From Porticoccaceae bacterium (GTDB lineage: Bacteria; Pseudomonadota; Gammaproteobacteria; Pseudomonadales; Porticoccaceae), in assembly GCA_029246925.1 (NCBI GenBank), contig JAQWMF010000032.1, positions 1 through 44,210 on the forward strand: a stretch of 44,210 nt of DNA. Reading direction: 5' to 3'. The notes beneath the pieces are model-generated. The model was not told where the DNA came from. It saw nothing but the letters and a program-made list of their open reading frames with translations, and made no database searches. Positions 2,268-44,210 of the stretch are shown here, piece by piece; position 1 is the stretch's first letter, and the number at the start of each line of letters is the position of its first letter. Made by a program: the position numbers and the translations under genes.

Positions 2268-3587
2268 ATGCAGCCCATTTCAATTGATCTTCTCCTTCAT
2301 TGCTCGTGGGTACTGCCCATTGTTCCTAACAACCAAATTCTACAAGATTACAGCGTAGCCATTGATGGTGGACGCATTCTTGAAATACTTCCCACTGAAA
2401 GTGCTAAGCAAAAATACCACAGCGAACAAACTGAGGAACTCAATAGGCATATTTTGATGCCTGGACTCATTAACACCCAGTGCAATAGTAGCCTCAGATT
2501 ACTGCGTGGCATCAATCAAGATCTTCAGCACAAACATTGGCTAGAATCAGACCCATCTCTGCCCGAAACAGTTTTTTCTGACTCTAAATTTATCCATGAC
2601 AGTGTAAATATAGCTATTGCTGAGATGATTAGGACGGGAACAACCTGCTTCGCAGATACGCACAGCGCTGGAGAATTATTTATCGATATAGCACGCAAAA
2701 CCGGCATTCGCAGCCAAGCAGGTTTCACGCTTCAAGAAAGGTCTTCTATTTTCGGAAACAATGCTGATGATTATCTGCACAGAGGCCTTAAATTACGCGA
2801 CAACCACTCCCATCATCCACTCATTAAGATAGCTTGCAGCCTATCCCAAATTTGCGACATCGAGGATGCAACACTCGAGCGACTAGCCGCCTATGCCAAT
2901 GAGCTAGATTTACCGATTCAAATTCAATGCAATGAAACTTTAGAAGCGATTGAAACCTGCCTTAAAAAAACAGGCCACCGCCCTCTTCAGCATCTTAACG
3001 AAAAGGGCTTATTGTTACCTGAGACTCAGCTGGTCGGAATAAATTACCTCAACTCAGAAGATTCAAGTATATTAGAAAAAACCAACAACCATGTTGTGAT
3101 ATGCCCAGAATTGCATTCCACACTATCAAGCGAGACCCGCCCTTTAGATTCACTTGTACAGGCCGGTGTTAATCTAAGCCTCAGCACTGTCAAAGCAGTC
3201 GATAATAAGGATTTTAACCTTATGGCGGTTATTAAAGCTGCGGCAACTGCTATTAAGGGGAGCTGCGGGAAAGACTCTGAACAGGCGGCTCATCAAGCGT
3301 TGCGTATGGCAACCATCAATGGCGCAAAGGCACTGGGCTGGGAAAATCAAATCGGCAGTATTGAAGAGGGCAAGCATGCAGACTTGATCGCTGTAGAAAT
3401 AGATTCTATTCATCATCAACCACTGTATAATCCCGCCTCACAATTGGTCTACAGCTCAACCAACAGCCCTGTTACTCATAGCTGGGTAGCGGGTCAGTCA
3501 TTACTTAAGGCTGACAATTTATGCACACTTGATGAGCGAAAATTAATCCAATCAGCTAAAGATTGGGCTAAGCAACTCGTTAATTAA
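2268..3587 (+). CDS. TRZ/ATZ (MtaD-like) amidohydrolase homologue lacking all metal ligands
   Basis: The 439-residue protein aligns along its whole length with TRZ/ATZ-family 5'-methylthioadenosine/S-adenosylhomocysteine deaminases, as found next to ubiG in Pseudomonas. Framework motifs remain: HILMPGLIN (61-69), AIAEMIRTGTTCFAD, HRPLQHLNEKGLL, ALRMATINGAKALG and IGSIEEGKHADLIAVE. Every catalytic motif is replaced. The strand-1 HxH is Q71-C-N73, the HxHET histidines are Q220 and N222, the VHM histidine is G257, the HCPESN motif is ICPELH (278-283), and the GTD aspartate is V308. It should therefore be unable to bind Zn/Fe or deaminate. The frame is intact, with a good ribosome site (GAGGAA) before ATG, so it looks like a maintained pseudoenzyme and not a decayed gene. 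A structural or regulatory role is only a guess. Confidence 0.85.
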   Translation: MQPISIDLLLHCSWVLPIVPNNQILQDYSVAIDGGRILEILPTESAKQKYHSEQTEELNRHILMPGLINTQCNSSLRLLRGINQDLQHKHWLESDPSLPETVFSDSKFIHDSVNIAIAEMIRTGTTCFADTHSAGELFIDIARKTGIRSQAGFTLQERSSIFGNNADDYLHRGLKLRDNHSHHPLIKIACSLSQICDIEDATLERLAAYANELDLPIQIQCNETLEAIETCLKKTGHRPLQHLNEKGLLLPETQLVGINYLNSEDSSILEKTNNHVVICPELHSTLSSETRPLDSLVQAGVNLSLSTVKAVDNKDFNLMAVIKAAATAIKGSCGKDSEQAAHQALRMATINGAKALGWENQIGSIEEGKHADLIAVEIDSIHHQPLYNPASQLVYSSTNSPVTHSWVAGQSLLKADNLCTLDERKLIQSAKDWAKQLVN

Positions 3588-3627
3588 CCAGCAATAGCTG
3601 ACTCAAGGCAGGTATTCAAAAATTAGT

Positions 3628-4335
3628 ATGTCTAATACACAGAATGTTGACCCCAATGAAATTCGCAAGTTCGAAGAGCTAGCAAGCCGCTGGTGGGACA
3701 AAAACAGTGAATTTAAGCCACTCCATGATATCAACCCACTGCGCGCCAATTGGATTGATAACCTTGCCCCAGTGGCCGAAAAAAAGGTACTGGACGTGGG
3801 TTGCGGTGGCGGTATTCTTTCTGAGGCACTGGCCCAACGTGGAGCGCAGGTCACCGGCATCGATATGGGTGATGCACCACTGGGGGTAGCCAAGCTGCAT
3901 CAGCTGGAGTCAGGGTTATCCATCAATTATCAAAAGTCCACTGCCGAAGACTTTGCCAAAGACCACGAAAATACCTTTGATGTGGTGACCTGTCTAGAAA
4001 TGCTTGAGCACGTCCCCGACCCCAGTTCGGTGGTTAGGGCCTGCGCCAAAATGGTAAAGCCTGGCGGCACTGTGTTTTTCTCCACCATCAATCGCAACCC
4101 CAAGGCTTTTCTGTTCGCCATTATTGGCGCCGAGTATCTCTTGCGGCTGTTACCTCGCGGCACCCATGAATATGCAAAATTTATACGCCCTTCAGAGCTG
4201 GCCAACTGGTCTAGAGAGGCCAATTTACAAGTCAATAAGATGACTGGCTTATTGTTTAACCCGCTAACCAAACAATATAGACTTAGCGATTCTGATATGG
4301 ATGTTAACTATATGATCAGCACCCAAAAATGCTAG
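3628..4335 (+). CDS. ubiG: Ubiquinone biosynthesis O-methyltransferase UbiG
   Basis: UbiG performs both O-methylation steps of ubiquinone synthesis with S-adenosylmethionine, as part of the Ubi complex at the inner membrane. The 235-residue length is normal. The N-terminus ([14 protein letters not shown], 11-24) is the family signature. SAM-binding motif I is VLDVGCGGG (54-62), followed by the acidic loop [15 protein letters not shown] and the [10 protein letters not shown] segment. The ATG at 3628 is 40 bases after the amidohydrolase stop, and the 3' end overlaps mupP by 7 bases. The two are therefore very likely co-transcribed and translationally coupled. This ubiG–mupP–yciK order is standard in Pseudomonas relatives. 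Confidence 0.97.
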
Positions 4336-41528: not shown

Positions 41529-43376
41529 ATGAGCGAAAATCTAAAAAGTCAGCAATCCGGTATTAAAGATCTTATCGCCAAAGGGCGTGAACAAGGCTAT
41601 CTGACATACGCTGAAGTCAATGACCATCTTCCTGAAGGAATTGCAGACCCTGAACAGGTGGAAGATATCATCCAGATGATTAATGATATGGGTATCACCG
41701 TATTTGAAACTGCACCTGATGCCGAATCCCTTCTAATGATCTCTGGCGTTAATACTCCAGATGAAGTAGCAGCTGCAGAAGCAGCGGCAGCACTAGCCTC
41801 AGTAGAATCCGAACAGCATAGAACCACAGATCCAGTCCGCATGTATATGCGCGAAATGGGCTCAGTAGAACTTCTTACAAGAGAAGGCGAAATTGAGATC
41901 GCCAAAAGAATTGAAGAAGGTACCAGAGAATTAATGTCAGCCATTTCTGACTGGCCATCTACAGTTTCAGCCATTATTGCTGAATGGGATCTAGTTCTTT
42001 CGGGTAATCGAAAGCTGACCGACGTTATTAGTGGTTATCTAAATCCAATGGAGCATGTTCCATCAGCCCTTGCACAGCAACAGGCTGCTGAAGCCGAAAA
42101 ACTGGCGAATGGCGGTACTGATGACGATGAAAGTGACGAGGACGAAGATGAAGAACATGAAGGTGGCCTAGATCCAGAAGAAGCCAACCGTCGCTTTGAA
42201 GAAATACGCGAGCAGCTAGTCAAAACTGAGCGCTCTATCATTCGATACGGTCGAGATGGAAAAGCTTCGCAACAAAATCTAGAGGACCTAGCTGATGTAT
42301 TTAAATACCTAAAGCTTACTCCACGACAGTTTGACCCCTTAATTGGAATGGTCAGACGCGCTGTAGAAAGAATCCGCGCTGAAGAACGTGCGATTATGCG
42401 ACTTTGTTTGCGCTACGCCAAAATGCCACGCAAAGACTTTATCAAAAGCTTCCCAACCAATGAAACTGATATGAATTGGGTTAGCAAACTAGTTGATACT
42501 GGCGCCGACTGGGCCAAAGGGCTTAAGAATCAAGAAATAGAAATCGTTAGATGTCAGCGTAAATTAGCGCAGGTTGAAGCTGAAAATCAACTGAGTATCG
42601 CGCAGATTAAAGATATCAATCGTCGCGTGACCATGGGTGAAGCCATGGCTCGCCGAGCGAAAAAAGAAATGGTCGAAGCCAACTTGCGACTGGTTATCTC
42701 TATCGCCAAAAAATATACCAACCGCGGCCTACAGTTCCTCGATCTTATTCAAGAGGGAAATATTGGTCTTATGAAAGCGGTAGACAAATTTGAATACCGT
42801 CGTGGTTACAAATTCTCAACCTATGCAACCTGGTGGATTCGTCAAGCAATCACAAGATCTATTGCCGACCAAGCGAGAACCATCCGTATACCAGTGCATA
42901 TGATTGAAACCATCAATAAACTCAATCGAATTTCTCGCCAAATGCTCCAAGAAATGGGTCGTGAACCCTCTCCTGAAGAACTCGCAGAGCGCATGGAAAT
43001 GCCGGAAGATAAAATCCGCAAAGTACTTAAAATTGCTAAAGAGCCCATCTCAATGGAAACGCCCATTGGTGAAGACGAAGATGCCAATATTGGTGATCTT
43101 ATTGAAGATACCACCATTGCCTTGCCAGTAGATGAAGCAACTAAGTCTAATCTTACCGATTCAACTCGCAATGTACTGGGCAGCCTTACAGCACGTGAAG
43201 CAAAAGTACTTAGAATGCGCTTTGGTATTGATATGCATACAGATCATACCCTAGAAGAAGTAGGCAAACAGTTCGACGTAACCCGTGAACGTATTCGACA
43301 GATCGAAGCAAAGGCATTGCGCAAACTGCGCCACCCTACTCGCTCAGATCATTTGCGCAGTTTTATTGACGAATAA
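41529..43376 (+). CDS. rpoD: RNA polymerase primary sigma factor RpoD
   Basis: This is the housekeeping sigma-70 of 615 residues. Region 1.1 is at the N-terminus ([25 protein letters not shown]) and region 1.2 is [22 protein letters not shown]. An acidic non-conserved insert ([16 protein letters not shown], about 198-213) is followed by region 2 ([50 protein letters not shown]), region 3, and region 4 with the helix-turn-helix ([30 protein letters not shown]). All regions are intact. It ends the cluster, and its 3' flank enters the repeat array. Confidence 0.98.
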
Positions 43377-43400
43377 TTAAGAAAATAACTAAATTCGCAT

Positions 43401-43426
43401 CTTTGTAGTTTAAAATTAATACAAAG
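43401..43426 (+). terminator. Weak hairpin after rpoD, possible terminator
   Basis: CTTTGTA (43401-43407) pairs with TACAAAG (43420-43426) around a 12-base AT-rich loop, 25 bases after the rpoD stop. It is AT-rich and followed by GGTTATTT, not a clean T-run, so intrinsic termination would be inefficient. The palindromic repeats that follow may contribute to 3'-end formation. Confidence 0.35.
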
Positions 43427-43450
43427 GGTTATTTAGCATACCGCTCTGTG

Positions 43451-43580
43451 ACACCGCCTAGCGGCAAAAAGACAGGTTAAACAGCAAGACCGTTAAAGGT
43501 TTTTTGTTATTAGGCTAGGAGCCGCACAGCAATAGGAGTGAGCATAGGTAATGTATGTGACCGAGAATTGTGAGCACGCG
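43451..43580. repeat. First repeat copy, single B-type 130-bp unit
   Basis: This unit has the common 47-base start (ACACCGCCTAGCGGCAAAAA…) and goes directly to the B half (TAGGCTAGGAGCCGC). It differs from the later B halves in the hairpin arm (GCATAGGTAATGTATGTG in place of GCATACACAATGTATGTG) and in spacing upstream. It is therefore the most diverged copy and probably predates the amplification. Confidence 0.8.
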
Positions 43581-43840
43581 ACACCGCCTAGCGGCAAAAA
43601 GACAGGTTAAACAGCAAGACCGTTAAACGTAGGATTTTTGGCTCAGCGCAAGGCGAACAATGAGACCAGTGAAGGAACATACACCAAGTATGTGACTGAA
43701 CGAGCGAAGCAGTTCAACGTAGCGATCAGTCAAAAAGACAAGTTTAAAATTAACGCAGAGGTTTTGTTGGTAGGCTAGGAGCCGCACAGCAATAGGAGGG
43801 AGCATACACAATGTATGTGACCGAGAATTGTGAGCACGCG
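43581..43840. repeat. 260-bp dimeric repeat unit 1
   Basis: This unit contains an A half (43628-43730 region; ACATAC/GTATGT hairpin at 43677-43693) and a B half (CATACA/TGTATG hairpin at 43803-43817). By direct base-by-base reading it differs from the next unit at only three of 260 positions, so the duplication is recent or homogenised. Confidence 0.88.
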
Positions 43841-44100
43841 ACACCGCCTAGCGGCAAAAAGACAGGTTAAACAGCAAGACCGTTAAACGTAGAATTTTTG
43901 GCTCAGCGCAAGGCGAACAATGAGACCAGTGAAGGAACATACACCAAGTATGTGACTGAACGAGCGAAGCAGTTCAACGCAGCGATCAGTCAAAAAGACA
44001 AGTTTAAAATTAACGCAGGGGTTTTGTTGGTAGGCTAGGAGCCGCACAGCAATAGGAGGGAGCATACACAATGTATGTGACCGAGAATTGTGAGCACGCG
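43841..44100. repeat. 260-bp dimeric repeat unit 2
   Basis: This is the second copy of the 260-bp unit, with three substitutions against unit 1 (AGG to AGA, CGT to CGC, GAG to GGG). It is followed by a 31-base partial third copy (44101-44131, GACAAGTTAAA in place of GACAGGTTAAA) that abuts the tRNA gene. Confidence 0.88.
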
Positions 44101-44131
44101 ACACCGCCTAGCGGCAAAAAGACAAGTTAAA

Positions 44132-44208
44132 GGGCCCATAGCTCAGTTGGTTAGAGCAGTCGACTCATAATCGATTGGTCGTAGGTTCAAGTCCTACTGG
44201 GCCCACCA
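44132..44208 (+). tRNA. tRNA with anticodon CAT, probably tRNA-Ile2 (lysidine type)
   Basis: This is a complete 77-base cloverleaf with encoded CCA. The acceptor GGGCCCA pairs with TGGGCCC, the D arm is GCTCAGTTGGTTAGAGC, the anticodon loop is CTCATAA (CAT at 44166-44168), and the T arm is GTAGGTTCAAGTCCTAC. It is not the initiator: the first pair is G-C and the anticodon stem lacks the three G-C pairs. The stem, loop and variable region (CGACTCATAATCG, TTGGTCG, GGTTCAAGTCC) resemble E. coli ileX, so C34 is probably modified to lysidine by TilS to read AUA. Elongator tRNA-Met is the alternative. Confidence 0.85.
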
Positions 44209-44210
44209 TT

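Follow-up and report, generated by a model that had tools for sequence, protein, structure and literature searches.

Between rpoD and a tRNA gene with a CAT anticodon, a Porticoccaceae genome carries a tandem array of palindromic repeats whose last copy ends where the tRNA begins, which raises the question of what these repeats are and why they lie there. The window analysed here, a stretch of 44,210 nucleotides, is contig 32 of a 1.55-Mb assembly in 105 contigs and stops at 44210, 2 nt past the tRNA, so the repeat number of the array is provisional. The array itself is real and contains one truncated and five full elements of ~122 nt in the order A-B-A-B-A (43450–44131), the A and B types being one family that can be aligned along its length. 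Consistent with the head-to-tail 260-bp dimer described in an earlier note on this DNA, TRF finds in the window a single tandem repeat at 43502–44131 with a period of 260, 2.4 copies and 97% matches. The note's statement that two dimers differ at three positions is exact for the phase 43580–43839/43840–44099 (differences at 43633, 43720 and 43759), and nine differences are counted in the phase 43502/43762.

The array is preceded by rpoD (41529–43376, plus strand), which encodes a sigma-70 factor with Pfam sigma-70 regions 1.1–4; the closest named proteins found come from an unclassified gammaproteobacterium (74%) and from Porticoccus sp. NORP89 (72%). Unit boundaries were set by two covariance models, R1 and R2, and by a 51-nt direct-repeat family, D3. 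All of the elements lie on the plus strand. The 5'-truncated A-type element (43450–43481) retains the 3' part only, belongs to D3 and has a weak R1 match at 43389–43481 (E 1.06). It is followed by A-type hairpin copy 1 (43490–43611; R1 E 1.3e-20 over 43493–43611, R2 1.2e-12), B-type copy 1 (43624–43747; R1 E 2.0e-19, R2 1.9e-20), A-type copy 2 (43750–43871; R1 E 9e-25, R2 9.1e-18), B-type copy 2 (43884–44007; R1 E 1.7e-19, R2 6.8e-21) and A-type copy 3 (44010–44131; R1 E 2.5e-25). The tRNA (44132–44208, plus strand; Rfam RF00005, 76.1 bits) starts at a gap of 0 nt from this last copy, whose basal helix UUAAC/GUUAA closes one nucleotide 5' of the tRNA, and an Rfam search of the region gave no match other than the tRNA. 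The CAT-anticodon tRNA is most likely tRNA-Ile2, as judged from its anticodon region GACTCATAATC and its linkage to rpoD; this assignment also draws on what is known of E. coli ileX, and ARAGORN labels the tRNA as tRNA-Met.

The monomers, taken in phase, fold far better than dinucleotide shuffles, with z scores of –3.86 for B copy 1, –3.45 for B copy 2 and –4.18 for A copy 3, while the 260-mer in the arbitrary TRF phase gives no fold signal (z –0.97). Folded together, the last B copy, the last A copy and the tRNA form three separate neighbouring domains. The stems, which the earlier note had proposed to check by covariance modelling, are supported by covariation. In a 29-sequence alignment from the rpoD/tRNA locus, 8 of the 21 pairs show compensatory changes. 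In other families, the elements that adjoin stable RNAs (alignment A3 together with two Salmonella spacer copies) show such changes in 30 of 35 pairs, with 90% of cells paired and a covariation of 0.623, compared to 0.203 ± 0.014 in shuffled and at most 0.14 in slid alignments, values that are to be read with the fact that A3 was aligned with a model already carrying part of the structure, which favours that structure. The basal helix (columns 1–5 with 141–145) is absent from the aligning model and pairs in 85% of cells, and this helix, which ends at the tRNA, is among the parts that covary across families. Furthermore, 13 A-type copies from one locus in 13 genomes carry changes on both sides at 10 pairs, amounting to 22 both-side-change cells, compared to 7.0 ± 2.0 in shuffled and at most 6 in slid controls. 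No A-type copies were found elsewhere in those genomes, and the compensating changes therefore probably evolved at this locus. Taken on sequence grounds, it is strongly supported that the ~122-nt elements are a hairpin family maintained by compensatory change.

The order of rpoD followed by a CAT tRNA is conserved across the family, with spacers from 7–11 nt up to more than 700 nt, and copies of the element were found in relatives, as the earlier note had called for. Elements occupy this spacer in about 21 of 50 genomes of the genus, and also in a few of the family's other genera. Copy number at the locus ranges from 0 to 5 among relatives, and in contigs that reach the tRNA the model boundaries place a gap of –1 to 4 nt between it and the last element. 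At empty sites, only 7–11 nt separate the rpoD stop from the tRNA. Sister genomes differ: the array is A-B-B-B-B in G018, whose three internal B copies score identically, but A-B in its sister G034, and G068 carries three copies against two in its sister G023. The array is thus a genus-wide, copy-variable feature, not peculiar to one genome, and a housekeeping locus (rpoD and a tRNA) has a spacer that grows and shrinks among close relatives. Apparent 3'-end remnants of the element are all that is present in G029, G073 and G013, of which G029 and G013 lie beside the carrier G019 in an rpoD tree; these remnant-like ends suggest loss from carriers. The arrangement rpoD-element-tRNA(CAT) is also seen in further families of the same order. 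The own genome contains three divergent dispersed relatives, none of A or B type (C23:27670–27790, C23:28873–28984 and C50:13923–14034). That every strong family-level match lies at tRNA-Ile2 does not hold, as one exception (G080:C94, E 3.4e-10) has no tRNA nearby.

Other features of these spacers were also seen. The rpoD-array spacers of G002, G012, G018, G021, G034 and G069 contain another repeat-like stretch upstream of the elements (compare GATCCCTCG...GGGATGACAG), and the element-free spacers of G091, G097, G098 and G104 have by eye a promoter-like GGACAG...TATACT or similar before the tRNA. On the 3' side, a related integrase-like gene lies ~50–85 nt past tRNA-Ile2 in five genomes (G004, G008, G034, G071 and G123; for example L119), and G106 has a different integrase downstream of this tRNA; a Pfam integrase domain was confirmed for G008, G034 and G106. 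In several relatives the 3' end of tRNA-Ile2 thus has the look of an integration site; with regard to the mobile-element hotspot that the earlier note had suggested, this site is separate from the array. Integration here may explain why contigs break at this position. In L244, moreover, a partial sequence like tRNA(CAT) (1628–1708) separates the element from an intact tRNA and may be the scar of an integration event.

Beyond the family, R1, which was trained on copies at the rpoD/tRNA locus and is biased toward tRNA-abutting copies, detects relatives at class level in 41 of 281 genomes (E<=0.01) and at order level in 28 of 295 (E<=1e-5). Among the 23 order-level genomes with R1 relatives that lie outside the family of the window's genome, the examined locus adjoins a stable RNA in 16: a CAT tRNA in six (one of them, L277, with an insertion within the element), tRNA-Ile GAT in four, tRNA-Ala in one, 23S rRNA in three and tmRNA in two. 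Because of the training of R1, R2 was built from 39 dispersed copies, none of which adjoins a stable RNA; these copies had themselves been found via R1, and some bias may remain. R2 matches 46 of 295 order-level genomes (E<=1e-8). Surroundings were examined for 126 of its matches: 15 lie at a gap of –1 to 4 nt 5' of a tRNA or tmRNA gene, six lie 17–21 nt 5' of 23S, two lie inside 23S genes and most others are dispersed. All R2 elements before tRNA, tmRNA and 23S genes are on the same strand as the RNA gene, and no element was found at a tRNA 3' end among the R1 and R2 matches examined. Uniform placement would give about 0.005 tRNA/tmRNA cases, an estimate that ignores shared ancestry and intergenic concentration and so shows no more than that chance placement before tRNA and tmRNA genes is not credible. 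Covariance models recover members that BLAST misses.

Further sites were observed. In L341 (G588) and L363 (G570), superfamily hairpins at 801–911 lie within 23S genes, close to position 1866 of E. coli, and are candidate intervening sequences. In L324 (G037:C10), 164 nt separate a superfamily element (3531–3653) from a 16S rRNA gene downstream. L303 (G023:C1:2881100–2883500) contains at 796–1593 six tandem related copies with a ~128-bp period between two ORFs that by eye resemble gspF and gspG.

We tentatively favour, at a probability just short of even, a reading in which a mobile palindrome has lodged in a co-transcribed spacer and provides a cleavable spacer between the rpoD mRNA and the pre-tRNA. 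An ERIC-superfamily palindrome would have lodged between rpoD and tRNA-Ile2 and then expanded in tandem, its copies multiplying by unequal recombination between near-identical units, a route suggested by the near-identity of neighbouring copies. Each copy would be transcribed within the rpoD-tRNA transcript and folded as a hairpin; cuts by RNase III or RNase E within the hairpins would part the pre-tRNA and the rpoD mRNA, and cleavage by RNase P at the 3' edge of the last copy would take this copy off and free the tRNA. The part given to RNase III and RNase E is proposed by likeness to ERIC and Correia elements. RNase P contacts the leader and could be impeded by a hairpin that closes at –1. 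Among the putative functions raised in the earlier note, a leader for the tRNA precursor is the best supported, through abutment, strand, the conserved hairpin and recurrence at tRNAs and tmRNA. Many species live without the element, which is therefore dispensable.

Two alternatives concern the locus as it stands. Mis-assembly of tandem copies might be suspected in an assembly of 105 contigs whose contig stops 2 nt past the tRNA, the more so as contigs of several relatives break here too; yet the single-contig genomes G018 and G023 have arrays at the same site and the dimers in the window differ at 3–9 sites, which makes an artefact scarcely probable. A module serving rpoD or the tRNA as terminator or promoter would suit the placement between genes, and the promoter-like sequences before the tRNA in some element-free relatives could be read in its favour. 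Such a module is nevertheless very improbable: from rpoD to the tRNA no terminator-like site was detected, which also speaks against the termination module of the earlier note, and promoter matches in the region are at chance level, with no excess. Since there is neither a terminator nor a promoter excess, and sister species have a spacer of 7–11 nt, the tRNA most simply derives from the rpoD transcript.

Two other readings carry more weight. The elements may be neutral passengers, MITE-like sequences that insert widely and are tolerated beside stable RNAs as these transcripts are trimmed anyway, the array being slippage noise; this possible reading is nearly as good as that of a cleavable spacer, and under it deletion of the array should give no phenotype. 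The patchy presence, the remnant-like sites and the differing copy numbers of sisters are consistent with it, as are the tandem array at the unrelated G023 site and the copies within 23S genes, which resemble intervening sequences. Pairing is equally good in dispersed copies (94.8%); constraint on the hairpin is therefore not confined to stable-RNA sites and could be a consequence of mobility. By itself, however, a neutral passenger leaves unexplained that the tRNA/tmRNA cases, all on the strand of the RNA gene, lie 5' at gaps of –1 to 5 and never 3', and that compensatory changes have accumulated at one locus. The position may instead be set by insertion and not by selection, with transposition targeting TA/TTAA-like sites or the 5' edges of stable RNAs and the later fate being functional or neutral. 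Empty sites often end TTAA-like just before the tRNA, neighbouring copies share one TTAA, which is suggestive, and ERIC is reported to have TA at its termini together with a target duplication (PMC2229807). In other families, by contrast, the ends form inverted pairs that covary (for example TTGAC/GTCAA and CTGGC/GCCAG) in place of TTAA, and no transposase was identified; we regard targeted insertion as rather unlikely to be the explanation.

The position at stable-RNA 5' edges is the new part, and it points to a link between mobile ERIC-type repeats and stable-RNA processing. For ERIC-type repeats this gives a concrete hypothesis, either a role in processing or tolerance because of processing. 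A broader and doubtful extension is that mobile RNA hairpins, spread through the class, serve as general detachable leaders where the 5' ends of tRNA, tmRNA, 23S and 5S are processed, with ERIC as their dispersed descendants or relatives. A largely open-access literature search yielded no ERIC-like elements described at tRNA or tmRNA leaders, and the earlier suggestion of a family undescribed in this lineage is plausible, as no description was found in the literature searched.

ERIC, also called IRU or RU-1, is an enterobacterial MITE-like element of 127 bp; to our knowledge, such repeats have been recognized since about 1990 and their role is still unsettled. The window elements resemble ERIC in length, in the central core GGAGCNTACATAAGTANGTGAC and in being full-length imperfect palindromes. 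They differ in arrangement, as ERIC occurs in single dispersed copies while the window elements are tandem and tied to stable RNA. At two ERIC loci of E. coli, R2 aligns end to end (1–122), scoring 27.7 bits (E 5e-4) and 25.3 bits (E 1.6e-3) in 14 kb; R1 responds weakly there (16.9 and 16.4 bits). BLASTN with a B-type query over 20,395 E. coli records gave nothing at E<=0.01, and a control search with the ERIC core hit 5,393 of the 5,426 E. coli genomes. The termini also differ, the elements starting TTAAC/TAAAC and ending GTTAA/GTTTA and E. coli ERIC running TATACTC...GAGTATA. From the missing E. coli copy and these termini, the window elements are not ERIC sensu stricto, so the description ERIC-like holds as kinship and fails as identity; the comparison supports a broader superfamily of ERIC-like elements, to which E. 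coli ERIC belongs as a distant member.

In Yersinia, ERIC insertions are reported to expose an RNase E site (PMC2229807). Correia/NEMIS elements of Neisseria are small palindromic MITEs whose RNA hairpins are cut by RNase III (PMC10969869); they are described next to mRNAs, and their likeness to the window elements is one of hairpin type. The 23S intervening sequences, such as those of Salmonella helix 25/45, are excised by RNase III (PMC2672173). They are ~110-nt hairpins within a stable-RNA transcript, a setting presumed for the window elements, and two superfamily members lie within 23S genes; unlike them, the window copies sit in a leader rather than in mature RNA, and their excision is putative. 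The 23S–5S spacer of Salmonella (L035–L038) has a ~110-nt BLASTN match to the window in several rRNA operons, confirmed by R1 and R2 (R2 75.3 and 66.3 bits), for which no description was found in the literature searched. This ERIC-like insert lies 5' of 5S, in single copy, with flanks that differ from those of the window elements.
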